DNA from: Cytophagales bacterium
GTDB lineage: Bacteria; Bacteroidota; Bacteroidia; Cytophagales; Flammeovirgaceae
Direction of reading: 5' to 3'
DNA length: 64,000 bases
Assembly (NCBI GenBank): GCA_025056215.1
Contig: JANWWC010000002.1
Span: forward strand, 1-64,000
Shown here: positions 34,128 to 58,955 of the stretch, piece after piece
Position numbering within the stretch: position 1 is the stretch's first letter
How the letters are laid out: each line of letters opens with the position of its first letter
Made by a program: the position numbers and the translations under genes
The notes under the pieces: model-generated
What the model was told of the DNA's origin: nothing
The model's database searches: none
Seen by the model: the letters and a program-made list of their open reading frames with translations, nothing else

Positions 34128-35039
34128 TCAAAAAACAAAAGAGAAATGAAGGTTCCATCTGTTTTCTGATCTGATATTTTGATTGGCCAAGTTTTGAACA
34201 AAAGGAATTTGAACGTTGCTCCCTACGATTATTTTACGAAAATAAAATTCACATCCCCATGAACCATTCCACAGCCTTCCTCCTGTTATTTCTATTGGAT
34301 ATTGGCTTTGGGTATCTTTCTCAGAAAATTCATAATAACTTCCTAAGTAAGGCATTAGTCCAAGTTCTCGAAATTTCGCTATAAAAAAAATTGCTATATT
34401 ATGAGCGGTTCTATTTCCAAAGCGATATTGTTGTTTGTTTTGTGTATTAAGTTTGTAGCTTAAATCGGTGGTAATTCCCCATTTATTAAAACGAAGCGTA
34501 TAAAATGCATTAAATAAAAAATCAACACTACCACTTCCTAATTGAAAGTTTGGATTAGCTACCTCTTTAGTGTTTTGTGCATCATACTGATATTTTCCAA
34601 AAGGAAATTTAATACCTGCCCCTACTAAAAAATTTTGTTTTACGCGTTTCATGCTGTTTGATGTATTTATTAAGGCATAAGAACCCAGTATTGCAGGGTC
34701 TCCTATACCGTTCAAAACGATTTTCTTACCTTGCGATTTTTGAATTTGAATGTTGTAATGATAAGGAAAAAAAGCAATTAACTGCAACTTAGACAAAGGA
34801 TAGTATCGCGCCCAAATTTCAGCTGTATAAAAGTGCTCTTCTGTATGAAATATAGGGCTTCTCTTTAAGTGCGACCGAAATGTCATGCTCCTATAGCGTA
34901 TTCCTACAAAATTTTTTGAAAACTGCGGCATAATTCCAGTGTAAATGTTGCCAACACCACACCCACAAATTTCACAGGCTAATGAGATTTTCCATAACAA
35001 TAAAAACCCCAAAGCTAAAAATAAATCAACCCTTCTCAT
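34128..35039 (-). CDS. Predicted outer-membrane beta-barrel protein with Cys-rich N-terminus
   Basis: A 303-residue exported protein, last gene of the first MbnP locus. After a signal segment (about 1-20) the mature chain would begin with CEICGCG (C22, C25, C27), a compact potential metal-binding cluster. The body alternates aromatic and polar residues, as outer-membrane barrels do (FVGIRYRSMTFRSHL, YTAEIWARYYPLSKLQLIAFFPYHYN, WGITTDLSYKLNT), and ends in Phe (HFSFVF), the usual sorting signal. It overlaps the peroxidase gene by four bases. A transport or receptor role for the metal handled by the locus is inferred. Confidence 0.7.
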   Translation of the reverse strand: MRRVDLFLALGFLLLWKISLACEICGCGVGNIYTGIMPQFSKNFVGIRYRSMTFRSHLKRSPIFHTEEHFYTAEIWARYYPLSKLQLIAFFPYHYNIQIQKSQGKKIVLNGIGDPAILGSYALINTSNSMKRVKQNFLVGAGIKFPFGKYQYDAQNTKEVANPNFQLGSGSVDFLFNAFYTLRFNKWGITTDLSYKLNTQNKQQYRFGNRTAHNIAIFFIAKFRELGLMPYLGSYYEFSEKDTQSQYPIEITGGRLWNGSWGCEFYFRKIIVGSNVQIPFVQNLANQNIRSENRWNLHFSFVF

Positions 35040-36106
35040 CTTATTTTGACATTGTTTGTAGGCGTTTTGATGGCAAATTCAGAAAGCTCAAAACGAGTAA
35101 TAAAAGACGTATCTGTAAGTGTTTGCAAAAAAGCAATGATTTGGCGTTTTTCTTCATCGCTCATCGGAATTCCTAGAATACCATTTTGTTTGAGAATTGG
35201 GTCAGTAGTAGCGCTATCTACTACCCCTTTTCTATAATGTTCAAGAACAGCATCTAACGTTTTAAAGCGCCCATCGTGCATGTAAGGCGCTGTATAAACC
35301 ACATTTCGCAAACTAGGCACTTTGAATTTGTAGCGGTCATCAGGGTTGAGAGTAATTTCAGCTCTTCCTAAATCATTACTGTATACTGGTAAACCGTTAT
35401 TTCGGAAGGTTCCATCTGTAAATAATTCTCCTGCATGGCAAACAGAGCATTTTTCTCTAAAAAGAGATAATCCTTTAAGTTCATCAGATGTAAGGATTCC
35501 TCCTTCATTTCGCACAAATTTATCATAGCGAGAATTAGCAGAAATACACATCAATTGAAATTGAGAGAGTGCTTTCAAGAAACGATCAGTAGTAATTTCT
35601 TCCGTTCCAAAAGCGGCTTTGAACATTTTAGGATAATGGGGATGTTTTCTCAATTTTTCTAACACATTTGACATCGTTTCACCCATCTCATTAGGCGCTT
35701 GAATAGGATGAGGAGGAAACAAATCGAGATCGAAAACTCCACCGTCCCAGAAGAAAAAACGCACCCATGCTAAGTTCATGATTGGTTGCGAATTGCGCCT
35801 TGTAGGCAAATCATCTATTCCGTGGCTAACAGCATGTCCGTGTTGTGTAAATGCTGAAGTTTGAATATGGCAAAAACTGCAACTTACCGTTCCATCGCGA
35901 GATAAAATACCATCATAAAACAAAGCGCGCCCTAATTCAAATCCTTCTTGTGTAATTGGATTTCGCGAAAAGTCGTAAACAGGAGAAGGAAAATTTTTAG
36001 GAACTTGAAACAAGATTTTTTTTGATGAAAAAGGTGCTTGCTTATCTTCTTCTTTGTAAGCACAACTCGTTAATGTAATCGCGATAAGCACAATAAATCC
36101 CTTCAT
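35036..36106 (-). CDS. Diheme peroxidase of the MauG/MbnH group, lipoprotein
   Basis: A 356-residue periplasmic enzyme of the cytochrome-c-peroxidase/MauG family. A lipobox (LTSC, Cys15) ends the signal peptide. Two c-heme sites, CSFCH (76-80) and CSVCH (220-224), mark the two domains. W120 in FFWDGG lies between the hemes, where MauG-like enzymes keep a bridging Trp. SLRNVVYTAPYMHDGRF is the conserved distal-side stretch. Its partner is probably the MbnP-like protein encoded just upstream. In methanotrophs MbnH converts a Trp of MbnP to kynurenine. Simple peroxide detoxification is an alternative. Confidence 0.9.
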   Translation of the reverse strand: MKGFIVLIAITLTSCAYKEEDKQAPFSSKKILFQVPKNFPSPVYDFSRNPITQEGFELGRALFYDGILSRDGTVSCSFCHIQTSAFTQHGHAVSHGIDDLPTRRNSQPIMNLAWVRFFFWDGGVFDLDLFPPHPIQAPNEMGETMSNVLEKLRKHPHYPKMFKAAFGTEEITTDRFLKALSQFQLMCISANSRYDKFVRNEGGILTSDELKGLSLFREKCSVCHAGELFTDGTFRNNGLPVYSNDLGRAEITLNPDDRYKFKVPSLRNVVYTAPYMHDGRFKTLDAVLEHYRKGVVDSATTDPILKQNGILGIPMSDEEKRQIIAFLQTLTDTSFITRFELSEFAIKTPTNNVKIR

Positions 36107-36155
36107 AAGTCACAGAATTTAAGACATCTTTGCTAAGAAGCAAAGAGAAAAAATT

Positions 36156-37016
36156 CTAATGAGTATGTCCTCCTACATTATGAACATGGTCAATTTTAAA
36201 CATATTAACATAATTATTAGCCAAGTTAGAAGACCAAACACTAAAGTGAGAATAAGGATTAGTCGCAAAACTTACAGTATAACTTCCTGAGAAAATTTTC
36301 AAGACATCTACTAAGATATGAACTGATGGAGTCTTATTAGAACGAACCCTTGCAGGTTCTGGACTTCTGAGAGTAGTAGTCCGAATGTTATTTACAGTAA
36401 CAGAAGAATATCCTCCAAATCCTCCGACATGGTAGAAAAATCGGCGTTGCCCATCAGAAGGACGTGTATAGGAAGATTGCGGAGAAGTTCCTTCAATTTT
36501 TACAAAAATATAACCAGAGTTCCATGTCCAGTACATGGGTTTCCCTGTAGCAGAGTCAGCTATATCTAAAACTCCGGTTCGACGTTCTATGGGCATGGTA
36601 GAACGTAAACTGTCGACTCCGATTGTAAAAGTTACTTCTACATAATCTCCTTCTGGGACATTCGAAATTGTAATTCTCTGAGAAGCAGCTACATGCTCAC
36701 GCACCAAAAAGTAACTTTCATCTTGCGGAACTATATATTCTCTTCCGTCGTTTGTTTTAAGTTTAATATTGCTAATGTAGTACTGAAAAACATCTACTGT
36801 AAAATCTTCATTAGAAGCATTTTTATAAGTAGCAGCGCCAAGAACGAGATCCTTATCTCCCACTACATTATCGAACTTTAAAATAATGCTGCCTCGTTTA
36901 TTGATATCGGGAGCAGGTTCTGAATGTTTATTTCCTTCTTTATTGCAGCCTAAAAAAATAGAAGCTAAGACAGTTATTATCAATCCTGCCAATTGATGAA
37001 ATGAAAATGTTTTCAT
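36156..37016 (-). CDS. MbnP-family copper-site lipoprotein
   Basis: A 286-residue lipoprotein (start at 37016, lipobox FLGC, Cys24). It belongs to the MbnP family, whose methanotroph member binds copper with histidines and a kynurenine made from Trp by MbnH. Visible family stretches are FTVDVFQYYISNIKL, IGVDSLRST and the central MYWTWNSGYIF with W163/W165. FYYHVGG with H196 follows, then HILVDVLKIF and a His-rich tail (DHVHNVGGHTH). It lacks the N-terminal FxH that the paralogues at 54730 and 55664 keep. The gene lies 49 bases upstream of the diheme peroxidase and 87 bases after the small Cys-rich gene. Confidence 0.85.
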   Translation of the reverse strand: MKTFSFHQLAGLIITVLASIFLGCNKEGNKHSEPAPDINKRGSIILKFDNVVGDKDLVLGAATYKNASNEDFTVDVFQYYISNIKLKTNDGREYIVPQDESYFLVREHVAASQRITISNVPEGDYVEVTFTIGVDSLRSTMPIERRTGVLDIADSATGKPMYWTWNSGYIFVKIEGTSPQSSYTRPSDGQRRFFYHVGGFGGYSSVTVNNIRTTTLRSPEPARVRSNKTPSVHILVDVLKIFSGSYTVSFATNPYSHFSVWSSNLANNYVNMFKIDHVHNVGGHTH

Positions 37017-37103
37017 AATAGATAAAATTTTTAGTTTGGTAAAATCGAAAAACAAAACTTGTGTCTAAAACTTGTACCATTGTCTGTCAAAAGAAAAAGA
37101 TGC

Positions 37104-37466
37104 TTACGCTAAAGAGGCAGGATGTGGAGGGTGAAAAATAGCGTTTATTGCTTCACTACCTAAAGAAAAGCTGTAAGGAACTGGATTAAATTCTTTAATG
37201 ATCTTACAATAAGAAAAATCCCATACAAGAAGTGGACAGCAATAAAGTATTTCAAACTTGAATTTAATTAAGTCGAATGCTTGAGCTTCTGTTTTATTAA
37301 GTTGCTTTTTTAGATAACATTTCCCTTGACAAAGTGGTACTTTTTTTTCGCATAAGTACTCGCTAACATAGCGGCGATTGAGCTGAAAACTCACCCAAAC
37401 GAGCCCCTTTGACGCTATCTGCAAAATAAATAAAAATGCTATTGCGAAAGAAAATATCTTTTTCAT
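37104..37466 (-). CDS. Small exported or membrane-anchored Cys-rich protein (C-x-GKCYLKKQ family)
   Basis: A 120-residue protein. The start at 37466 (MKKIFSFAIAFLFIL) fits the promoter and the MKK start of its relative at 58587; a longer in-frame start at 37514 would include the promoter. One N-terminal hydrophobic segment is followed by LCEKKVPLCQGKCYLKKQLNK (C39, C46, C50) and a tail with IFHPPHP. The 122-residue protein that opens the second locus shares the segment and motif. I recall similar small Bacteroidota proteins near metal genes but know no function. Cys and His groups suggest copper or another soft metal. Confidence 0.7.
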   Translation of the reverse strand: MKKIFSFAIAFLFILQIASKGLVWVSFQLNRRYVSEYLCEKKVPLCQGKCYLKKQLNKTEAQAFDLIKFKFEILYCCPLLVWDFSYCKIIKEFNPVPYSFSLGSEAINAIFHPPHPASLA

Positions 37467-37471
37467 AGGCC

Positions 37472-37501
37472 CAAATATAAAAACTCTCAAAGGAGTTACA
37501 A
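37472..37501 (-). promoter_or_regulatory. Promoter of the first MbnP locus
   Basis: On the minus strand TTG (complement of 37499-37501) and TATATTTG (complement of 37472-37479) are 19 bases apart, a full match to the Bacteroidota promoter pattern. The -7 element ends only five bases before the ATG at 37466, so the mRNA would be leaderless or nearly so. Confidence 0.5.
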
Positions 37502-37515
37502 TTAAAACTCTCAAA
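37480..37515. repeat. Direct repeats AAAACTCTCAAA around the promoter of the first MbnP locus
   Basis: AAAACTCTCAAA occurs at 37480-37491 and 37504-37515, a 24-base period. One copy fills the spacer between the -33 and -7 elements and the other lies just upstream of -33, a placement suited to a repressor or activator. No regulator gene is adjacent. Confidence 0.5.
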
Positions 37516-39378: not shown

Positions 39379-41754
39379 TTAAAACTTTAGATGCGCTGTA
39401 ATAAATACACTTCTCAAAGGCTGAATTAAAAATCCTGGCACAAAATTGCCTGAATAAGTAGGATCTACAGGAGCCCCTGATGTGTAATATTTTTGATTGA
39501 ATAAATTGTTCACTTGTACGTTCAGGCTATGCTCTTTATAAAACTTCCAACGAAGGTATCCATCAAGAATATGAGAAGAAGGTACTTTAAAATCGGGATT
39601 ATTAGTAAGTTCCATAAATTGCTCACTGATATAACGCGCTGATAATCCTATTTGTAAAACTTCAAACGGACAGTATTGCACTCCATAATTGATGAGCCAT
39701 TCGGGAGAAAGAATTTGCTGAACGCTTTTGAATACTGCCGTATCCCCACTCCGATATTCTCTTACGCGAGACTGCATATAAGTGAGGTTTCCTAAAACCT
39801 GCCACTTCGGAGTAATATCATATTGATAATCTAACTCTATCCCTGCGCGATAGCTCGAAGGAACATTTTGTTGAATATCAATAAACCCGTTCACTATAGA
39901 ACCTATTGGAGTAATTTCGTTTTGAAAAAGCATGTAAAATCCGTTAAGTTCTACAAAAGAACGATTTTTACGATATTTTATACCTAACTCCAAATCGTTC
40001 ACATACTCTTCCTTAAAATAAGATGTATTGCGAACATTAATTAAATTAGAAGGCTTGATACGCCAACTTCCCAAAATATCATAACGCGTAGGTTCACGCC
40101 CCGTTCTTCCTAAAGAAATATAAGCTTGCAAATTCTGATTGACTTCATAAGTTAACCCCACTTTCGGATTTATAAATAACCAATTATAAGTAGGAATATT
40201 GAGCGTATCCGGATTAAAGATAGGAGTTCGCGCTTGTGGATCTAATTCATCGGTAAATGAATATTGCAGCTTCATATCCATACTCACTGCACGCAATTGC
40301 ACATCAGCATAAAATGTAGTCTTTCCTTGCGTATGCGATAGTTTAGCAAAAGCGCTTGCTTCATTTTTTTGCACCTTATCAAAATAATATGGATTTGATG
40401 CTTGCGGTAAGTAACCTTCCTTATTTTCTCGCAAAAAAGTATAAACATGTACTCCCGTACTCCAGTCTGTTCTGCCATTTAGTGAACGATTGTTAAAAAT
40501 TGACATAAAACCGAAATGGCGATTTTGTAAAGGATAATTAATATGAACTAACACGTTCTGAGCAGGAGAAGTAGAGTCTTTATTGGTAGTATACAATGGA
40601 AATGGAAAACCAAACGGGAATATACCGCCCGCTCCTCCATAGTACAACGAGGATGTAATTTTTTGACGCTGATGAAATGTGTGGATATGCTGAAGTTGTG
40701 CAAACTGTTGTCCAAAATCGTCTTTATCGTTCACATCAAGGCTGTTAGTTCTGTAATCTCTTTCTAAAACATTTTTAGGCTCATTTAAATAAGCCAGTTG
40801 GTTTTTAGTTTGTCCATTAAAAGCGGTGAGCTTAAAAATGTCTTTTTTTCCAAAATAACCTCCTGAAAAAAAGAAAGAGTAAGATTCAGTTCCAGAATTT
40901 TTTTTGAAACCATCTGTAGTAATTTGCGAAAAACGCCCATAGAAAGCAAAATTATTAGGCAACAGTCCTGTTTTGTATTCTGCAGAAAGTTTGTGCGTAT
41001 TAAAAGAACCCGTAGTATATTGCAAATCGCCAGAAGATTTTCCTTCATTCAGATTAGCAGATTCGAAATTAATAGAACCTGCGTATGAAGCTGTCCCATT
41101 TACAGAAGTGCCTACTCCGCGCTGAATCTGAAAAGATTGAACACTGTTCATGATATCGGTAAAATTAGAAAAATACACTCCTTGATCAATCATATCGTTT
41201 AAAGGAACTCCATTAAGAGTAATATTTACACGCTTCTGAGGCATACCACGTAGGCGAAAATCTCCATAGTTTGTAAAGCCGGTTCCTGCTTGGGTACTTG
41301 TAATAAAAGAAGGACTCAATTTTTCCATTAAAAATAAGCCATCTTGCCCTATCATCTTTGCTTCTATCTGCTGAAGTTCTACCGTTTTTTGAGTGACGGG
41401 AGTTTGCTCATCAGCTCGATAACTATCTGTAATAATAATTTCGGGCAAAGAGGTCACCTTTGTAAACTGAACATCAATTACTAAGTTGCTTTGCGAAAGT
41501 TCTACATTTTCTGTTTTAGACTCATAGCCCAAATAAGAAAAAGTAATCGTATAAGTGCCAGGCTTCAAATTAGAAAGCGTGTAGTTTCCTTCTGCATCTG
41601 AAACCGTTCCCTTAAAAGTCTGATTGAGAATAATCGTAGCACCCGATAAAGGAGCTCCGTTTTCATCAGTAACTTTTCCAGAAATACTCAATTGCTGTGC
41701 TTTAAGATGAAAGAAACATCCTATTAAAAAGAAAAAGAAAACCTGTTTTTTCAT
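39379..41754 (-). CDS. TonB-dependent outer-membrane receptor under a TPP riboswitch, probable thiamine importer
   Basis: A 791-residue outer-membrane receptor. The start at 41754 gives a signal peptide (MKKQVFFFFLIGCFFHLKAQ); the open frame continues upstream through the riboswitch and is not coding there. A CarboxypepD_reg-like domain (SGKVTDENGAPLSGATI, about 25-105) precedes the plug (FRLRGMPQKRVNITLNGVPLNDMID) and the 22-strand barrel, ending AHLKF. The TPP aptamer in the leader points to thiamine or a thiamine precursor as cargo, as described for riboswitch-linked receptors in Bacteroides. No periplasmic or inner-membrane thiamine transporter lies nearby. Confidence 0.92.
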   Translation of the reverse strand: MKKQVFFFFLIGCFFHLKAQQLSISGKVTDENGAPLSGATIILNQTFKGTVSDAEGNYTLSNLKPGTYTITFSYLGYESKTENVELSQSNLVIDVQFTKVTSLPEIIITDSYRADEQTPVTQKTVELQQIEAKMIGQDGLFLMEKLSPSFITSTQAGTGFTNYGDFRLRGMPQKRVNITLNGVPLNDMIDQGVYFSNFTDIMNSVQSFQIQRGVGTSVNGTASYAGSINFESANLNEGKSSGDLQYTTGSFNTHKLSAEYKTGLLPNNFAFYGRFSQITTDGFKKNSGTESYSFFFSGGYFGKKDIFKLTAFNGQTKNQLAYLNEPKNVLERDYRTNSLDVNDKDDFGQQFAQLQHIHTFHQRQKITSSLYYGGAGGIFPFGFPFPLYTTNKDSTSPAQNVLVHINYPLQNRHFGFMSIFNNRSLNGRTDWSTGVHVYTFLRENKEGYLPQASNPYYFDKVQKNEASAFAKLSHTQGKTTFYADVQLRAVSMDMKLQYSFTDELDPQARTPIFNPDTLNIPTYNWLFINPKVGLTYEVNQNLQAYISLGRTGREPTRYDILGSWRIKPSNLINVRNTSYFKEEYVNDLELGIKYRKNRSFVELNGFYMLFQNEITPIGSIVNGFIDIQQNVPSSYRAGIELDYQYDITPKWQVLGNLTYMQSRVREYRSGDTAVFKSVQQILSPEWLINYGVQYCPFEVLQIGLSARYISEQFMELTNNPDFKVPSSHILDGYLRWKFYKEHSLNVQVNNLFNQKYYTSGAPVDPTYSGNFVPGFLIQPLRSVFITAHLKF

Positions 41755-41846
41755 AACATAAAACATTTTAGTTGTTAAAAAAACAGGGGGAATTTTTGGG
41801 ATAAACCCGTGCAAGGTGGGACACGTTCCGCGGCACGTGCTACGCT

Positions 41847-41920
41847 CACACTTCCCTACGACGGTACTAACCGTATCAGGTTCATTGGGTATAATCTCAG
41901 CCAAAAGGCACCCCCGTGTG
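41847..41920 (-). promoter_or_regulatory. TPP riboswitch (THI element)
   Basis: The minus strand contains the conserved thiamine pyrophosphate aptamer: GGGGTGCC, GGCTGAGA, ACCC, TGAACCTGAT, a short variable stem (GG...CC) and GTAGGGAA, closed by the P1 stem CACAC/GTGTG. It lies about 90 bases upstream of the receptor start. Between aptamer and gene, CCCCTGT (complement of 41783-41789), directly before a run of seven T, can pair with ACGGGGG at the 5' end of the aptamer, a plausible expression platform. The full gap 41755-42058 otherwise has no gene. Confidence 0.95.
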
Positions 41921-51890: not shown

Positions 51891-52418
51891 TTATTTTAAA
51901 TTGAACCATGCATCAACTTGAACCTTTTCAGCGATTTTCATCGATACAAGAGCAGGAATCTTTATATTATAATCTTCTAAAAAAAGAAAAAAACGAGTTT
52001 GCAGTCGAAAAGCGTTTGCAAGAGGAACAATAGAACCAGCAATTTCTACGTCTTGAGTAACTCCATGTAACGTCAATTTTCCTAAAGCAACAGCCCTAGA
52101 GCTGTCTTTCAAAGTGATAGGAGCTACATTTATTTTCCCTTGAAAAGTAGCAAATGGATATTTATGAGATTCCACATAATTTTCGTTGAAATGCTCTTGC
52201 ATTAGTTTGTTAGGAAAATCAAAAGTAGTCATCGGAATTTTAATAGCGATTTCTCCTGTATAAATGTTCATAGCTACAGCAGCTTTATTTGTTTGAGCAG
52301 TGATATCTTCAAGAGGAGCACTTGAAAAAAAAGAAATGACACCTTGGTTGGTTTTTACGATTTGAGCACGAACCGCTGTTGAGACAAAAAGAACCGCTAT
52401 CATGCAAATTGACTTCAT
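51891..52418 (-). CDS. YceI-family periplasmic lipocalin-like protein
   Basis: A 175-residue exported protein of the YceI family; members have a lipocalin-like barrel that binds polyisoprenoids such as ubiquinone-like lipids. A signal peptide (to VRAQ, about 19) precedes ISFFSSAPLEDITAQT, ESHKYPFATFQGKI and LTLHGVTQDVEI, the standard landmarks. It is the last gene of the second MbnP locus and overlaps the DUF5777 gene by four bases. An isoprenoid quinone carrier would fit a redox role for the locus, but that is inference. Confidence 0.92.
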   Translation of the reverse strand: MKSICMIAVLFVSTAVRAQIVKTNQGVISFFSSAPLEDITAQTNKAAVAMNIYTGEIAIKIPMTTFDFPNKLMQEHFNENYVESHKYPFATFQGKINVAPITLKDSSRAVALGKLTLHGVTQDVEIAGSIVPLANAFRLQTRFFLFLEDYNIKIPALVSMKIAEKVQVDAWFNLK

Positions 52419-53281
52419 TTTTTGCGAAAACTAAACATTCTTGAAATGTTGAACCCATAAAAAACATCTCCTTTTTCCCAATTGCCATAAGTTTCAGCAA
52501 TAACACCTTTTTCCACCATACTTCGAGAATTGGTAAAATGAAGTTGAAACACATGTCCACCTGTTTCAATATCAAATCCTATCGAAAAAGCGTTTTGATA
52601 GATGTTAGGCAACTGGTTGGGAAAGACATAAAAATATTCTGCATTGAGCGCGACCCGCTTAGAAAATTTAATGCGCCCTGCCCCTACACAACTTAAAATT
52701 GTGTTTTTCCCTTCACCCTCTCGAACGCCATTTCTATGCAAAACCGTAGGACTTACTTGAAAGGAGTAACGCTCTGAAAATTTTCGCGCTATTATGATTT
52801 GATGAACGTATGCTAAGCGATTTCTAAAAGCATAATTAGGATACAAAGCAGAATTGACCTTCAAAGTTTGAACTGTAGCAACTGAAAGCAAAGTAATAGT
52901 AACGGGTATTGATTGAGCCCCTGTGCGCTGGCGAAACAATTTATACTTTATGTAACTATCATATACTTTTTGAAAGCTACTTCTTCCAATTGCTATATTC
53001 AATCGGTCTGTAATTCCATACTCTAATCCCCATCGAATTTGAGATTGATCTAGCCCCCACAGTTCATAGTACCCAGAATTAACACTTCCGAAACGATGTG
53101 AAATGCGAAATTCTAAATGTTTTTGAGCGATTGTTTCAATGCTATGTGCGTTGATAACACGAGTATTTTTAAAAGTAGCTGACACCCATGTTGATGAATC
53201 TGTTTCAACATCAAGAATTTGCATTAAATCCTGGGCATAAGATAGATTAGCAAAAAAAAGAAAAGCTAAAACAATTCTCAT
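52415..53281 (-). CDS. DUF5777-family outer-membrane beta-barrel protein
   Basis: A 288-residue protein with a signal peptide (to LSYAQ, about 16) and a beta-rich body. LEFRISHRFGSVNSGYYELWGLDQSQIRWGLEYGITDRLNIAIGRS is characteristic of DUF5777 beta-barrel proteins of Bacteroidota. The chain alternates polar and aromatic residues and ends FGF-N-SRMFSFRKK. It overlaps yceI by four bases and follows the small c-heme lipoprotein by nine. DUF5777 proteins often accompany cytochrome-domain lipoproteins; the function is unknown. Confidence 0.8.
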   Translation of the reverse strand: MRIVLAFLFFANLSYAQDLMQILDVETDSSTWVSATFKNTRVINAHSIETIAQKHLEFRISHRFGSVNSGYYELWGLDQSQIRWGLEYGITDRLNIAIGRSSFQKVYDSYIKYKLFRQRTGAQSIPVTITLLSVATVQTLKVNSALYPNYAFRNRLAYVHQIIIARKFSERYSFQVSPTVLHRNGVREGEGKNTILSCVGAGRIKFSKRVALNAEYFYVFPNQLPNIYQNAFSIGFDIETGGHVFQLHFTNSRSMVEKGVIAETYGNWEKGDVFYGFNISRMFSFRKK

Positions 53282-53290
53282 ATACTACAA

Positions 53291-53695
53291 TTATTGCAAA
53301 AATCCATCTGCTTTCCAGCGCCTAAATATCTCTATTTCTTGGTCTGAAAGTTTAGGTCCTCCTCGAGGCATGAGTCGAGAGTCCCCTTCTGGGAGAGTAA
53401 TTCGGTAAATAATATTGTCAATCTCGTTTTTAGTAGTGGTATAGTCATAATTATGGCAACCTCTTGAATTACAATAGCTTCTTAACAATGGATTTAGGCT
53501 GGTGCTGAATTTTACAGCAGAGCCAGAATCATTTGCTCCATTAGAAGGCAAGTTGCTGGGACTATTACCTTGATTAAGGGGGCTTGGATTGCTTGTATTA
53601 TTACTACTTGGGGGAACATTGGAAGAAGGCTTTATAGTTTCATTTGAACATTGGACGAGCAATATTGCTAAAATGATTTTCAAAACTTTTTTCAT
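53291..53695 (-). CDS. Small c-type heme lipoprotein with a CX4CH site
   Basis: A 134-residue lipoprotein (lipobox LLVQC, Cys16). A low-complexity Ser/Asn/Pro linker (about 20-58) leads to a compact cytochrome-like domain: LNPLLRSYCNSRGCH, then LPEGDSRLMPRGGPKLSDQEIEIFRRWKADGFL. This is the planctomycete-type cytochrome C layout, with a likely axial Met in LMPRGG. The heme site reads CNSRGCH, that is CX4CH rather than CXXCH, confirmed in the DNA. It lies directly downstream of the cadherin-like cytochrome gene. Confidence 0.8.
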   Translation of the reverse strand: MKKVLKIILAILLVQCSNETIKPSSNVPPSSNNTSNPSPLNQGNSPSNLPSNGANDSGSAVKFSTSLNPLLRSYCNSRGCHNYDYTTTKNEIDNIIYRITLPEGDSRLMPRGGPKLSDQEIEIFRRWKADGFLQ

Positions 53696-53771
53696 TGTCG
53701 TATAAGATTTTATACTAACAAATATACATGCCTATATGAAAAATACCATATAGGCATAATATCTAAAAAGA

Positions 53772-54716
53772 TCATCGAAGAAATCCTCCTTCAGCCCATT
53801 TGCGAAAAGTTTGTATTTCTTCAGGTGTAAGAGGATCGTATCCTTCTGCAGGAGGTGGCATAATGAAAGGCTCCCACGCAGGAATCGTAATACGTTTCAT
53901 AACTTCTTGATGCTTATTAACAAGAGCTTGATAATCAGTACCAATTCCTGTAATATGGCCTCGGGTAATATGGCAATTAGTACATCCTCTTCTTGCTAAA
54001 ATAGGGCGAATTTCCCAAGTCCAAGTAGGATACGCTCCTGGAGTATATCCTCGAGGTCTTACTACTAAAATAAAAGCATCAGTTCGACTAAAAGCACCTG
54101 CACTATTGACCAACTGCAGTCGAATGCGATAAATATTGCTTCTCAACGTATCTGGGAAACGAATAATGCCTGTTAAAGAATCTATTACAATGCCAGCAGG
54201 CACCTCTGATCTATTTTGAATCCGATACGTTACCTGAGATGCATTTGTAGTAGGAGCTGCAGTAACATAAGCTGTTCCAGAATCTACCACAACAAAAGAA
54301 GGAGAGTATTCTACTCTAGAGGGAACTATTGTCCAAACCACTACTACCAGAGCATTATTTTTGATGTAACTCGCTTTTGCATTAGTGGCTTTTACAGATA
54401 AAGAATAAGTTCCAGCAGGAACACCTCCCCGTACAGTTATCTGCCCCGTCTGAGAATTGATAGAAAAGCGATTATCAGTAACATTTACCAACTCGAATAT
54501 CATAGGTCTCGAACCATTCACAGTAGGTTCTACAGAAATAGCATTTCTACCAAACTGAACAAATAATGTATCAGAGTACTTTAAGTCCGAAGGAGGGGCT
54601 TGTTCATTCGTTACGCGCTGATCAGGCCCAGGTTCCTTGCTTACTTTTTCCCTGCAAGCATACAATCCTAACAATAAACATTCCAAAGCTAACAAATAAA
54701 AAAGATAACGTTTCAT
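53772..54716 (-). CDS. Lipoprotein with Ig/cadherin-like repeats and a C-terminal c-type heme domain
   Basis: A 314-residue lipoprotein (lipobox LGLYAC, Cys21). Two cadherin- or putative-Ig-like modules occupy about 45-215; each has the sequence FSINSQTGQITVRGGVPAGTYSLSV or a similar DSLTGIIRFPDTLRSNIYRIRL. The C-terminal domain (about 225-314) has heme site CTNCH and FIMPPPAEGYDPLTPEEIQTFRKWAEGGFL, matching the neighbour at 53291. This looks like a heme group held away from the membrane by a spacer, suited to electron transfer. Confidence 0.82.
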   Translation of the reverse strand: MKRYLFYLLALECLLLGLYACREKVSKEPGPDQRVTNEQAPPSDLKYSDTLFVQFGRNAISVEPTVNGSRPMIFELVNVTDNRFSINSQTGQITVRGGVPAGTYSLSVKATNAKASYIKNNALVVVVWTIVPSRVEYSPSFVVVDSGTAYVTAAPTTNASQVTYRIQNRSEVPAGIVIDSLTGIIRFPDTLRSNIYRIRLQLVNSAGAFSRTDAFILVVRPRGYTPGAYPTWTWEIRPILARRGCTNCHITRGHITGIGTDYQALVNKHQEVMKRITIPAWEPFIMPPPAEGYDPLTPEEIQTFRKWAEGGFLR

Positions 54717-54729
54717 AGTTTCTGAATTT

Positions 54730-55644
54730 TTAATTTGAAATATTGAGCAATGAAAACATAGTTTGATAGTTGTTAGCTAACTTGGTCATCATATCAGGAT
54801 TAAAAGCATTGATAGTGCGATAAGTAGAATCGTAGTTAGAAACAGACCAACCTGGTAGCGTCTGGTTATGCGGCAAAGCCCCCAAAGAAATGTCTCGGAA
54901 AATACTTGTTAGATCTACCTTAATGGAGACTGTAGCAGTTTTACCTGGCAAAGCATTGTAAGCATTAGAACCAAAATTTAGAGTTACAGTTCGATAGTTT
55001 GTGTTTGCTCCTGTTTCAAAATAAAAATTGTATCTTTTGGTAGCACTATCTAGGGAGCCAGACGTACGCAAAAAGATGTAGCTCGTTTTCCATACCCATG
55101 AACTTACCTGCGCCATTTTGTCGATATCTAACTCGCCTTTGCGCAATGAAAAATTAGAGTTCGGAACTGAATCCACTCCAATTGCAAATCGAATCCCTGT
55201 GTAACTACCTACTGGAATGTTCGGAATAGTTACCACTTCCCGGCGGTTAGCAGGAACGTATTGAGTGTCCGTAAGTACTGTTCCGATGTACAACTCGCGT
55301 TCCATGTTTTCAACCAAATAATAAGAATCGGGTACTTTGTAAGTAGAACCATCTGCTTTCAATAACTCCACATTGCTCACCCAATAACGAATCTGACGAA
55401 AAGTGTATTTAAAATTTCCAATCGTTACAGGTGAATTGAGCGTAAGAGGAGTTGAACCTATTTGATGTTGAAAAGACAAGCACAAAATTCCACGGCTTGA
55501 ATCAACAAAAGATTTCAAAATATCTTGAAAAACTGTATCTCCGTTCGACTTGTAAATGAACTGCTTTTTAGGTTCTATCTCTTTTTGGCAACCATAAATA
55601 ACCGTTAAACTTAACACAAATAAGAAAAGAGAATTTTTATTCAT
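54730..55644 (-). CDS. MbnP-family lipoprotein, paralogue A
   Basis: A 304-residue lipoprotein (lipobox IYGC, Cys19) of the MbnP family. Shared landmarks are LCLSFQHQIGSTPLTL with H60, QIRYWVSNVEL, IGVDSVPNSN and SSWVWKTSYIF with W183/W185. Where the paralogues at 36156 and 56613 have YHVG or YHIG, it reads YFETGA, so that His is replaced by E210. The adjacent paralogue at 55664 is very similar, so the two arose by tandem duplication. A redox-modified Trp made by the MbnH-type enzyme of the locus is inferred. Confidence 0.85.
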   Translation of the reverse strand: MNKNSLFLFVLSLTVIYGCQKEIEPKKQFIYKSNGDTVFQDILKSFVDSSRGILCLSFQHQIGSTPLTLNSPVTIGNFKYTFRQIRYWVSNVELLKADGSTYKVPDSYYLVENMERELYIGTVLTDTQYVPANRREVVTIPNIPVGSYTGIRFAIGVDSVPNSNFSLRKGELDIDKMAQVSSWVWKTSYIFLRTSGSLDSATKRYNFYFETGANTNYRTVTLNFGSNAYNALPGKTATVSIKVDLTSIFRDISLGALPHNQTLPGWSVSNYDSTYRTINAFNPDMMTKLANNYQTMFSLLNISN

Positions 55645-55663
55645 AGCAATAAAAATTTAAGGT

Positions 55664-56584
55664 TTACTGATTAACAACTTTTTGGAAGCTAAACATATTC
55701 TGTACATTATTAGAATACATGCTCATCATAGGCGCGTTGCTGGCATTGATAGTTTTTGTTCCAGCTAAGTAGTTGTGAATTGCCCATGTCGGCAAGCGTT
55801 GAGAACTCGGAAGCGAAACTACATTAATTCCTTCGAATACTTTGCTAACATCTACCTTCAGATGCAAATAGCTTATCTTAGCAGCGCGAGACTTCAAGGG
55901 TGTTGTAAGATTGATAGTAATCACTCTCAAATTTTGATTTGCACCTGCTTCAAAGTAAAATGGATACTGCAAATTTGCGGAATCCATTACACCAGAAACG
56001 CGACTAAAAATATAGCTTGTTTTCCATACCCAAGAAGCCACTGAGTACATTTTATCGATATCTAACTCCCCAGCCTTAAGAGCAAAATTGCTATTTTTAA
56101 CGCTATCTATGCCTACATTAAAAGTTAAAGCTCTATAATCGCCTACTGGAATGTTTCCTATAATTACTTCTTCTCTTGTTGAAGGAGCCACATATTGAGT
56201 ATCGCGTTTGGTCGTACTGATATAGTATTCTCCCCCAAATTTTTCTACAAAATAGTAAGAATCAGGAACTTCATATATGCTTCCATCAGTCCTGATTAGC
56301 TTAACACCAGAAATCCAATAACGAATTTGATGAAACCGAAAACTTTTATTCGCACTCCGATACTCTCTTCCAAGCTCCAAAGGCCGATCTCCAAAATGAT
56401 GATTAAAATTTAAACTCAGAACTCCTTTGCTAGGATCGTAATTAGGAATTACAATAATACGCCTGAGCGTATCGGGAACGTTTACAACCTCTGTAATAGG
56501 TTCTACTTCTTTTTTCTTACAAGAAGCCATGAGTGAAATCCCTCCACATAGCATGGCGATTCGAAAAATATTTAACTTTTTCAT
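55664..56584 (-). CDS. MbnP-family lipoprotein, paralogue B
   Basis: A 306-residue lipoprotein (lipobox LMASC, Cys22), the closest relative of its downstream neighbour at 54730. Matching stretches include LSLNFNHHFGDRPLEL (H62, H63), QIRYWISGVKL, VPDSYYFVE, VGIDSVKNSNFAL and ASWVWKTSYIF (W185, W187). The middle motif is YFEAGA, again without the His of the other paralogues. It is 28 bases downstream of paralogue C and 19 upstream of paralogue A. Copper binding would rely on the N-terminal His and the Trp site if the family model applies. Confidence 0.85.
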   Translation of the reverse strand: MKKLNIFRIAMLCGGISLMASCKKKEVEPITEVVNVPDTLRRIIVIPNYDPSKGVLSLNFNHHFGDRPLELGREYRSANKSFRFHQIRYWISGVKLIRTDGSIYEVPDSYYFVEKFGGEYYISTTKRDTQYVAPSTREEVIIGNIPVGDYRALTFNVGIDSVKNSNFALKAGELDIDKMYSVASWVWKTSYIFSRVSGVMDSANLQYPFYFEAGANQNLRVITINLTTPLKSRAAKISYLHLKVDVSKVFEGINVVSLPSSQRLPTWAIHNYLAGTKTINASNAPMMSMYSNNVQNMFSFQKVVNQ

Positions 56585-56612
56585 CAGTTATTTAAATAAA
56601 AAAGATTAATTT

Positions 56613-57434
56613 TTAATAAAACACAAAAGCTCTAAAACCATTTGCATAATTATCAGCAATCAAGTATGAATCTTTCCAGTCGTGAATTGAATGAACAGCG
56701 CTCATATCGATGGTATGAGGGTTTTTAAAAATCTCAGCAACATCGAATTCTAAAATGAGAGTAGTAGTTTTTCCACCTCTAAACTTAATCGGTTGATTAA
56801 GCTTACGATTTACCATGTCAAACCTTTGAATACGATAATTAGGATTCAAGCCTATGTGATATTCAAAAAATTGCCATGAGCTTGTATTTTGAATGCGATA
56901 ATTTCCTTCAATGAGAAAAAACTTATATCCTGTCACCCAATCCCAAAACATTCCTAAAGCAGGATCGAGCTCTCCTTTGTGGTCTAATCGACTATTCTGA
57001 AGACTATCAACCCCAATTCCTAAAGTTAATACGTCGAATACGACAGAGGTATCTACCCAACCAACATCGAAAGTAAGACGCGTTCTATTAAGTGACTTTT
57101 CTATTAAATAAGATTTGCTATCTTGGAAACTTTCTCCCGTAAGGCTATTAAAAAGTTGTATTTTCGAGAGATAAAACATCAAAGTCCCTACTTTATAAAA
57201 ATCTCCATTCGCATTTTTATATTCTGTTTGTAAAGAAAATGGAAGTTCTTCATTCACCAACTTAATTTCTACACGAAGCAAGCCCTTGTGAGATGGAGTG
57301 GACCTTAACGAATCTTTTTTGTGGTCATCCATTGCTGGATTTGTCGGGCTCTGAGAGGGAGAAATATTCTCTTTCCTCCGACAACACATCAACATAAAAA
57401 AACAATTGATTATAATCCAAAATTGTAGTTTCAT
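56613..57434 (-). CDS. MbnP-family lipoprotein, paralogue C
   Basis: A 273-residue lipoprotein (lipobox LMCC, Cys17 or Cys18) of the MbnP family and the most divergent of the three in this locus. It keeps YKVGTLMFYLSKIQL, IGVDSLQNSRL, GMFWDWVTGYKF (W164, W166) and EYHIGLNPNYR with H193, but lacks the N-terminal FxH of paralogues A and B. It starts three bases after the diheme peroxidase gene, the position that the obligate MbnP partner would be expected to take. Confidence 0.83.
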   Translation of the reverse strand: MKLQFWIIINCFFMLMCCRRKENISPSQSPTNPAMDDHKKDSLRSTPSHKGLLRVEIKLVNEELPFSLQTEYKNANGDFYKVGTLMFYLSKIQLFNSLTGESFQDSKSYLIEKSLNRTRLTFDVGWVDTSVVFDVLTLGIGVDSLQNSRLDHKGELDPALGMFWDWVTGYKFFLIEGNYRIQNTSSWQFFEYHIGLNPNYRIQRFDMVNRKLNQPIKFRGGKTTTLILEFDVAEIFKNPHTIDMSAVHSIHDWKDSYLIADNYANGFRAFVFY

Positions 57435-57437
57435 AGA

Positions 57438-58523
57438 CTAATGCTTAAAAGGATTCTGAATCAGTGGATTTTTAAGAAAATCTTCATCAGTAAGAGTATG
57501 TAAAAAAGCAATAATAGCCTCTTGTTCTTCTTTTGAAAGCGCTATCCCATAAGTACCATCTGCTCGTCGAAATCCTTCATCGATTGTAGGAGAGTATTTC
57601 ATTCCATTTACATAATGTTGAAGAACTTCTTGAAGGGTCGAAAATCTTCCGTCGTGCATATATGGAGCTGTACGAGCTACATTTCTTAAGGAGGGAGTTT
57701 TGTATTTGCCTATGTCTTTACTGTCAAAACTCACTCTGCCGTGTCCGAAAGCAATGCGTTCATGTTCTTCGCTAAAAACACTATCCAAGCCGTTGTTATG
57801 AAATTGAGTATCGGTAAACAAATCAGTGCTGTGGCAACGCCTACAATGTTGTTCAAAAAAATGCAATCCTTTTAACTCTAAAGCGCTTAAACGCTCCCCT
57901 TCATTGCGAACAAATTTATCATAACGGCTATTAGCTGAAATGATAGCTCGCTGATACTGAGCCAAAGCGCGAAGAATGTTTTGGGTAGAAATTTTTTTAT
58001 CTGGAAAAGCGCGCTCAAAACGCTCTTTGTAGTCATAACGATTTTGGAGTTCAGATGATAACTGTTTTAAATCTTGATTCATTTCATGGATACTAGTAAT
58101 AGGAGCTACAGACAAAGATTCTAAGTTGCGCGCTCCCCCATCCCAAAACAATCCATTATTTTGCCAAGCCATATTGAATATGACAGGAGTGTGGCGATGA
58201 AGAGTAGATTTATCGGCACCTATGTTAGTGCGCGGGATACCGTCAGAAAAATACTTTTCTGGCTGATGACAGCTTCCACAAGAAATATCATTGGCACCTG
58301 AAAGAGCTACATCAAAAAAAAGCATCCTGCCCAGTTCCACTCCCTCTTTGGTTTGTGGATTATCTGGGAAAGGAGCAACAAGTGGAAAGTTCTTAGGCAA
58401 ACTTTCCCATGAAAAAGGATACTTATAAGCAGCAAGAGGGGTATCGCTCTTTTCACATGAAAACAAACACAATAACATCATAGCAATAACACACCCCTGC
58501 CCTAAAAAAGGCTTGGTTTTCAT
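57438..58523 (-). CDS. Diheme peroxidase of the MauG/MbnH group, lipoprotein
   Basis: A 361-residue lipoprotein (lipobox LFSC, Cys23) related to the enzyme at 35036. Heme sites are CGSCH (82-86) and CRRCH (227-231); W127 in LFWDGG lies between them. SLRNVARTAPYMHDGRF is the conserved distal stretch. MauG-like enzymes use two hemes to oxidise aromatic side chains of a partner protein, and MbnH does so to a Trp of MbnP. The three MbnP paralogues directly downstream make that role more likely than simple peroxide removal. Confidence 0.92.
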   Translation of the reverse strand: MKTKPFLGQGCVIAMMLLCLFSCEKSDTPLAAYKYPFSWESLPKNFPLVAPFPDNPQTKEGVELGRMLFFDVALSGANDISCGSCHQPEKYFSDGIPRTNIGADKSTLHRHTPVIFNMAWQNNGLFWDGGARNLESLSVAPITSIHEMNQDLKQLSSELQNRYDYKERFERAFPDKKISTQNILRALAQYQRAIISANSRYDKFVRNEGERLSALELKGLHFFEQHCRRCHSTDLFTDTQFHNNGLDSVFSEEHERIAFGHGRVSFDSKDIGKYKTPSLRNVARTAPYMHDGRFSTLQEVLQHYVNGMKYSPTIDEGFRRADGTYGIALSKEEQEAIIAFLHTLTDEDFLKNPLIQNPFKH

Positions 58524-58586
58524 ACCTTTATTATTTTTTAGGATTATAAGAATTGAAAGAAAAGAAGATGAATGAATAATGTGCGT

Positions 58587-58955
58587 TTAAATTGCACGTG
58601 GAGGTTGGTGATTAGAAGAAAGATGGGCTGAAATAACAGAAAAGAAATAAGGTTTGCACGTTATTGAAGACGTAGCAGAATGTAAACGGAGCTCAAATTT
58701 GGAACTCACAATAGAAAAAACTTCGTGAGGTTTTTTGAACTTAAACTCACTTTTTTGCTCTTCGTCTGTAGCCTTATCGATTTGCTTTTTGAGATAGCAT
58801 TTACCTTCGCACTTTTTTTCTATTTTTTGCTTATTTTCACAATAAAGCGAAATAATTTGTTGTTTGTTTTGATAATAATAAGTGAAAAAGAAAAATGGCA
58901 TGAAAGCCTTTGCAATCACGCATAAAATCAATGCTATGGACAACGCTTTTTTCAT
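58587..58955 (-). CDS. Small exported or membrane-anchored Cys-rich protein (C-x-GKCYLKKQ family)
   Basis: A 122-residue protein that opens the second MbnP locus and is related to the one at 37104. An N-terminal hydrophobic segment (about 5-28) is followed by LYCENKQKIEKKCEGKCYLKKQIDK (C39, C49, C53); the tail contains SSNHQPP. The shared elements are a Cys at residue 39, the CxGKCYLKKQ block and a final HxPP. Position and motif suggest metal delivery or sensing at the periplasmic face. A transcript start between this gene and the one upstream is proposed at 58970-59001. Confidence 0.7.
   Translation of the reverse strand: MKKALSIALILCVIAKAFMPFFFFTYYYQNKQQIISLYCENKQKIEKKCEGKCYLKKQIDKATDEEQKSEFKFKKPHEVFSIVSSKFELRLHSATSSITCKPYFFSVISAHLSSNHQPPRAI

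Follow-up and report, generated by a model that had tools for sequence, protein, structure and literature searches.

The subject of this analysis is a stretch of nine minus-strand genes in a 64,000-nucleotide window of a Cytophagales genome (assembly GCA_025056215.1, contig JANWWC010000002.1, positions 1 to 64,000). The genes encode, in order, a Cys-motif protein, a MauG/MbnH-type dihaem enzyme (MauG1), three MbnP proteins (MbnP_c, MbnP_b, and MbnP_a), a c-type haem lipoprotein with immunoglobulin (Ig)/cadherin-like domains, a small haem lipoprotein, a DUF5777 barrel, and a YceI-family protein. An earlier, sequence-only reading had treated all nine as one system. Comparison with related genomes makes it moderately probable that the stretch consists instead of two neighbouring gene groups, a front group of six related to the MbnP/MbnH pair and a separate rear cassette of three. 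With comparable confidence, the front group can be said to run from the Cys-motif gene to the Ig/cadherin c-haem lipoprotein gene and to end at a hairpin. On the best reading, the MbnP/MbnH system that matures copper lipoproteins occurs here in a rare form that is independent of methanobactin and has a c-haem partner. The rear group (a CX4CH lipoprotein, DUF5777, and YceI) is most likely a common redox/envelope cassette that is an unrelated neighbour of the front group.

Separation of the rear cassette

Among 58 related genomes, MbnP is found in 44, DUF5777 in 42, and CCP_MauG in 48. MbnP and DUF5777 matches lie within 10 kb of each other in only one of the 33 genomes bearing both (own included), namely the present one, where 2.4 kb separate the match starts; the next closest distance is approx. 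16 kb, in G008 and G014. In a sample of 129 genomes of the class (MbnP in 90, DUF5777 in 116), the two lie within 20 kb, among the matches listed, in one of 71 genomes with both, which is again the present genome, and the next distance is 22.8 kb. The search for conserved co-occurrence proposed in the sequence-only reading thus does not support one nine-gene system. Whether a relative carries MbnP also shows no correlation with whether it carries DUF5777 (33 with both, 11 with MbnP only, 9 with DUF5777 only, 5 with neither; Fisher p 0.50). In the class, the correlation is weak (85/5/31/8, p 0.02, uncorrected for kinship). MbnP and MauG, on the other hand, travel together in the relatives (44/0/4/10, p 2e-8), and all 44 MbnP bearers have MauG-family genes.

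Viewed from the DUF5777 side, the same division appears. Within 2.5 kb and on the same strand, the 54 DUF5777 loci have YceI at 45, a family haem protein at 43, and MbnP at one, that of the window. The DUF5777 gene of the window, with YceI and a c-haem protein alongside, is thus a member of this cassette. In G001, a genome of the same family, the order haem, haem, DUF5777, YceI occurs as a separate cassette (L075), with the same rear genes in the same order as in the window. Elsewhere in Bacteroidota, the cassette often includes a tRNA_anti-like OB protein or a Rieske protein and lies away from MbnP, whereas that of the window adjoins it. The Rieske count (7 of 54 loci) comes from a loose pattern and is Pfam-confirmed at L053 only. 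Rieske-type lipoproteins were seen in or near the cassettes at L053, L054, L068, L070, and L084, mostly without the family haem protein. The small haem protein of the window has the motif C-NSRG-CH (CX4CH) rather than CXXCH; a haem is nevertheless likely, because the motif in the 60 family members compared is CX2CH or CX4CH (CX5CH in one member). The predicted model of the DUF5777 protein is of low confidence (predicted local distance difference test, pLDDT, 49.5).

The border between the groups is placed at an almost perfect inverted repeat, which the first reading did not mention. It is present once in the window, lies between the two haem genes, and is followed by TATATTTGTT. The RNA hairpin folds at -24.9 kcal/mol (z -4.75), and none of 200 shuffles was as low. 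It is a possible terminator or processing site, and the transcription units are putative. The Bacteroidota promoter pattern has 6 matches against 4 expected, none of them in the locus, and a sigma-70 scan (36 sites against 24.6 expected) was uninformative.

A clade of MbnP proteins with an altered site

The MbnP proteins of the window pass the Pfam model PF20243 with 104-173 bits (cut-off 27). Both tryptophans (Trp) of the WxW motif are identical in all four MbnPs of the two window loci (the second locus is described below). A later histidine (His) is kept in 61 of 65 MbnP rows, including MbnP_c and MbnP_d, and is also carried by the methanotroph MbnP of 7l6g. The four remaining rows have glutamate (Glu) in MbnP_a and MbnP_b, Lys in one row, and Asp in the fifth MbnP of the genome. 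The three MbnPs of the nine-gene stretch had been treated alike, a view that does not hold for MbnP_a and MbnP_b, which are 47% identical to each other and are here called E-type. For MbnP_a, the first six structural matches of a low-confidence predicted model (mean pLDDT 57) are chains of 7l6g (E 6e-7 to 2e-6), and the protein is predicted to have the MbnP fold.

When 390 genomes of the order were searched with MbnP_b, 12 had matches at E <= 1e-22, and 14 places were read. The same Glu is present in 10 of the 390 genomes, i.e., the present one, G256, G374, G282, G271, G210, G419, G401, G434, and G409, which span four families (f1, f4, f11, and f19). Overall, 94 MbnP rows have His in 76, Glu in 15, and another residue in 3. 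Apart from Glu210, present in 15/15 by definition, the signature of the E-type rows comprises Arg135-Glu136 (15/15), Trp88 (14/15), and Ser188 (14/15); the H-type counterparts are Tyr88 (51/76) and Gly188 (75/76). One row, from G497 (f13), has the Glu and none of the other signature residues. In a tree from which five long-branch MbnP rows were left out, 14 of the 15 Glu rows form one group (Shimodaira-Hasegawa-like approximate likelihood ratio test, SH-aLRT, 89), and the two E-type proteins of the window cluster with G256 (SH-aLRT 88). An E-type profile run against 395 genomes of the class (E <= 1e-40) found no further Glu-type protein; the two matches outside the own genome both have His (YHLG). 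No description of E-type MbnP was found in the literature searched on MbnP/MbnH, MauG, MopE, and DUF5777, a coverage that most subscription papers fall outside. By sequence, the E-type MbnPs form a subfamily that has signature residues of its own and, in most cases, an MbnH-like enzyme of its own as well. The metal, the affinity, or the redox role of their site has probably changed.

The dihaem enzyme

MauG1 has the features of a MauG/MbnH-type dihaem enzyme, namely two CXXCH motifs (residues 82-86 and 227-231), an inter-haem Trp (Trp127), and a tyrosine at the second-haem ligand position (Tyr304), which is aligned with a Tyr of MbnH 6e1c. All of these are invariant in the 56 rows of a MauG-family alignment (rows >500 aa removed, as in the gene-order tree mentioned below). 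We take the Tyr304 position to be that of the distal haem ligand, which is Tyr in MauG and Met in peroxidases. Of the PDB structures, 6e1c, from the MbnH family, matches MauG1 best (1.2e-44), followed by cytochrome c peroxidases and MauG. In a tree without MauG rows of >450 or <250 aa, MauG1 is sister to the MauG that lies beside the E-type MbnP of G256, a genome of another family (SH-aLRT 90). In the window, it is the His-type MbnP_c, not an E-type protein, whose gene directly adjoins that of MauG1.

Neighbours of E-type loci

Neighbouring genes were counted on the same strand within 4 kb at 14 loci with a Glu row and at 57 His-only loci; L001-L010, which are copies of own or already sampled places, were excluded, and SCO was counted by profile. 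Monohaem proteins occur at 8 of 14 E-type loci and at 4 of 57 His-only loci (p 1e-4), of which two proved false on inspection (one is a Fur-like regulator, the other a zinc alcohol dehydrogenase), and SCO1-like genes (SCO1-SenC Pfam matches) occur at 7 of 14 and 0 of 57, respectively (p 3e-6); both p-values overstate the number of independent events, because many E-type loci come from one family. On this point the earlier reading is supported: c-haem lipoproteins go with MbnPs of this type, and the association recurs in other families.

Individual loci illustrate this arrangement. In G256, the order is Cys-motif protein, MbnP(H), MbnP(H), MbnP(E), a 304 aa Ig-like haem lipoprotein, and MauG; in G282, it is Cys-motif protein, MbnP(E), MauG, a 200 aa Ig-like CX4CH lipoprotein, MbnP(H), MauG, and the barrel Bar2. 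The haem lipoproteins of both loci, each beside an E-type MbnP, are relatives of the Ig/cadherin haem lipoprotein of the window (E 4.5e-13 and 0.0016, respectively). In G374, a small cytochrome c follows MauG, and several f11 genomes have a His-rich lipoprotein and a SCO1/SenC-family protein after the E-type MauG, with a cytochrome c of 112-119 aa in four loci.

Further haem proteins were seen near MbnP loci. Downstream of the G256 E-type locus lie two membrane proteins that carry cytochrome c domains at their C-termini (L140, 2982-6243). At L020 (4569-5939), a protein of 456 aa that combines a copper type II monooxygenase domain with a CX4CH haem motif adjoins a MauG/MbnP pair.

Proposed mechanism and relation to known systems

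MbnH makes kynurenine in MbnP. The pair, also termed the "metallo-mystery pair" (TIGR04052/TIGR04039, GenProp0940; 7l6g, 6e1c), shares with the front group the MbnP fold, the WxW motif, and an adjoining MauG-type dihaem partner. Its occurrence far beyond methanobactin producers, reported in PMC3621798, is a further common point, as the front group also lies outside a methanobactin operon. In particular, the genome contains no match to the MbnB family (PF05114, at E 0.001), which supports the earlier view of the locus as methanobactin-independent. The front group differs from the known pair in that its proteins fall far under the equivalog cut-offs and are lipoproteins, its MbnPs have no four-Cys motif by eye, the E-type members lack the conserved His, and a Cys-motif protein and a c-haem lipoprotein are added. 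A second precedent is found in MopE/SACCP and CorA/CorB of methanotrophs, in which a surface protein has a copper site with a Trp-derived kynurenine and a MauG-like dihaem gene is co-transcribed; for CorA, the site is Kyn62/His64/His114, and the MauG-like protein is proposed to make the kynurenine (PMC3912023). The window MbnPs were not detected as belonging to the same sequence family as MopE/CorA.

Because of the CorA/MopE and MbnP precedents, it is proposed that MauG1, using peroxide or oxygen, would oxidize a Trp of WxW in the exported MbnP lipoproteins and that this oxidation would build a metal site in the envelope. MbnP_c would carry the usual site, and that of MbnP_a and MbnP_b would differ by the change of His to Glu and by a fixed extra Trp and Arg-Glu pair. 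The Ig-like monohaem c lipoprotein could act as the redox partner in the window, passing electrons or copper, a role that a small cytochrome c and a SCO1-like copper chaperone may play in other genomes. The SCO1-like neighbours in those genomes favour copper as the metal. The rear redox/envelope cassette would simply have come to lie behind the front group.

A bolder version of this scheme is that the E-type MbnPs carry a new protein-derived cofactor. A dedicated MbnH-like enzyme would act on Trp88 and on both Trp of WxW, all three of them fixed, next to the Glu that replaces the His ligand. The product would be a metal or redox site different from the copper site formed by Kyn and His, and it would exchange electrons with the neighbouring monohaem lipoprotein at the surface of the cell. 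We regard this version as rather improbable. The MbnP/MbnH pair is widespread, yet it has been studied mainly in methanotrophs. The E-type clade, with its changed ligand, dedicated enzyme, and c-haem or SCO1-like neighbours, provides a natural comparison, in which the same enzyme chemistry would meet a site with Glu instead of His. It makes testable whether copper binding for cytochrome oxidase supply, or another role, is involved.

Alternative explanations

Several observations weigh against the reading of the front group as a separate MbnP/MbnH variant. Trp oxidation, metal binding, and electron transfer are presumed by analogy, and His210 itself may be a copper ligand, a putative role. The window MbnPs score 24.3-43.8 bits against the 140-bit cut-off of the MbnP equivalog TIGR04052, and the MbnH model TIGR04039 is the best NCBIfam match for MauG1 and MauG2 but gives 230.0 and 217.8 bits against a cut-off of 362.85. 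The tree supports of 88-90 fall under 95, and the branches of MbnP_c and MauG1 are long. The seven SCO-bearing E-type loci all come from one family (f11) and so represent few independent events, the window locus has no SCO gene, and at L015, a His-only locus, a SCO-like gene is present in the opposite orientation. The closest outside relative of the Ig/cadherin haem lipoprotein sits in the G001 DUF5777 cassette (E 1.2e-16), which makes uncertain on which side of the border this protein falls; it may belong to the rear group. Finally, as the hairpin tail is moderately T-rich at most, one transcript for all nine genes is possible.

The last two points touch the alternative of a single nine-gene system that works as a unit in this lineage, the DUF5777/YceI/c-haem cassette having been recruited by MauG1 and the MbnPs to provide quinone-linked electron partners. 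The common strand and tight spacing, the presence of relatives of the Ig/cadherin haem lipoprotein in both contexts, and the recurrence of c-haem neighbours at E-type loci would all agree with this; however, the two families are contiguous in one of the 33 genomes with both (the present one), MbnP is missing within 2.5 kb at 53 of the 54 DUF5777 loci, the presence of the two families is uncorrelated in the relatives, and a hairpin occupies the gap, so that we consider one system unlikely. Less probable still is a role of the MauG proteins in peroxide defence, as cytochrome c peroxidases of the ordinary kind, with MbnPs that are binding lipoproteins and stay unmodified. Many bacterial cytochrome c peroxidases of known structure do match MauG1 (E down to 1e-34), but 6e1c is the better match, the haem-proximal Tyr aligned with that of 6e1c is found in every row of the alignment, and in none of the 44 relatives with MbnP is MauG missing from the same genome. 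That MbnP_a and MbnP_b are decaying duplicates which lost their metal site would explain the missing His and the 47% identity of the pair; the fixation of the same residues over four families, the invariant positions of the clade's own, the open frames, and the lipoboxes make decay very improbable. The two-group reading is preferred.

Gene layout and the second MbnP locus

The nine open reading frames lie at the positions and in the order first described (Table 1), and Pfam supports YceI (1.2e-12), DUF5777 (4.2e-92), three MbnPs (1.5e-37, 6.5e-35, and 1.1e-29), and CCP_MauG (3.9e-52). From the Cys-motif gene to YceI, the intergenic gaps are 63, 3, 28, 19, 13, 76, 9, and -4 bases; the several overlaps reported earlier come down to one, that between DUF5777 and YceI. 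The count of six lipobox carriers agrees with six lipobox-like N-termini judged by eye, of which that of the small haem protein (LVQC) is weak. The Cys-motif protein has no Pfam family above cut-off and no NCBIfam match; its family has 27 members, and a same-strand copy lies within 2.5 kb of 26 of 65 MbnP genes.

Table 1. Features of the nine-gene stretch and of the second MbnP locus in the window
Feature	Position	Strand	Basis
Small Cys-motif membrane protein (YCxNK..CxGKCxLxKxL ... PP)	58587..58955	-	Family comparison
MauG1, MauG/MbnH-type dihaem lipoprotein	57438..58523	-	Pfam, NCBIfam, PDB matches, tree
MbnP_c, H-type MbnP lipoprotein (WDW ... YHIG), divergent	56613..57434	-	Pfam, alignment
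MbnP_b, E-type MbnP lipoprotein (SWVWKTS ... FEAG)	55664..56584	-	Pfam, alignment, tree
MbnP_a, E-type MbnP lipoprotein (SWVWKTS ... FETG)	54730..55644	-	Pfam, alignment, tree, low-confidence model
Lipoprotein, two Ig/cadherin-like domains and C-terminal CXXCH haem domain	53772..54716	-	Relatives' sequences
Hairpin of 13 pairs in the 76-base gap, followed by a T-rich tail; candidate terminator or processing site	53727..53758	-	RNA folding
Small CX4CH haem lipoprotein, DUF5777 cassette	53291..53695	-	Motif, family
DUF5777 outer-membrane barrel, DUF5777 cassette	52415..53281	-	Pfam
YceI-family protein, DUF5777 cassette	51891..52418	-	Pfam
Second Cys-motif protein	37104..37514	-	
MbnP_d, H-type MbnP; listed start TTG, in-frame ATG gives 36156-37016	36156..37055	-	
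MauG2, second MauG/MbnH-type dihaem protein	35036..36106	-	
Bar2, N-terminal CEICGCG, second locus	34128..35039	-	

The genome (2.83 Mb, 17 contigs, 99.5% complete) has five MbnP, two CCP_MauG, and one DUF5777 matches, and both MauGs and four of the five MbnPs fall inside the window. This includes a second MbnP/MbnH locus at 34128-37514, overlooked in the first reading, which encodes a Cys-motif protein, MbnP_d, MauG2, and the barrel Bar2. It is of the ordinary MbnP/MbnH kind, with identities to relatives of up to 63% for MauG2 and 56% for MbnP_d. Gene order in the relatives (MbnP then MauG in 39 cases, MauG then MbnP in 15, neither in 3) prompted the idea that the two window loci are halves of an ancestral MauG-MbnP/MbnP-MauG cluster. 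This idea was dropped because the tree did not put MauG1 with the MauG-first group; MauG1 is tied to E-type loci instead.

A siderophore-type TonB-dependent receptor is encoded at 39379-41904, two genes from the second locus. Pfam places TonB-dependent receptors close to a few MbnP loci (L022, L042, L142, L144, and L150), and they were not used as an argument, because most of the neighbours of 700-850 aa that were inspected were other proteins. The fifth MbnP of the genome (L048, 7842-9275; G000 C9) is 478 aa long, lacks WxW, and has Asp at the position of the His.

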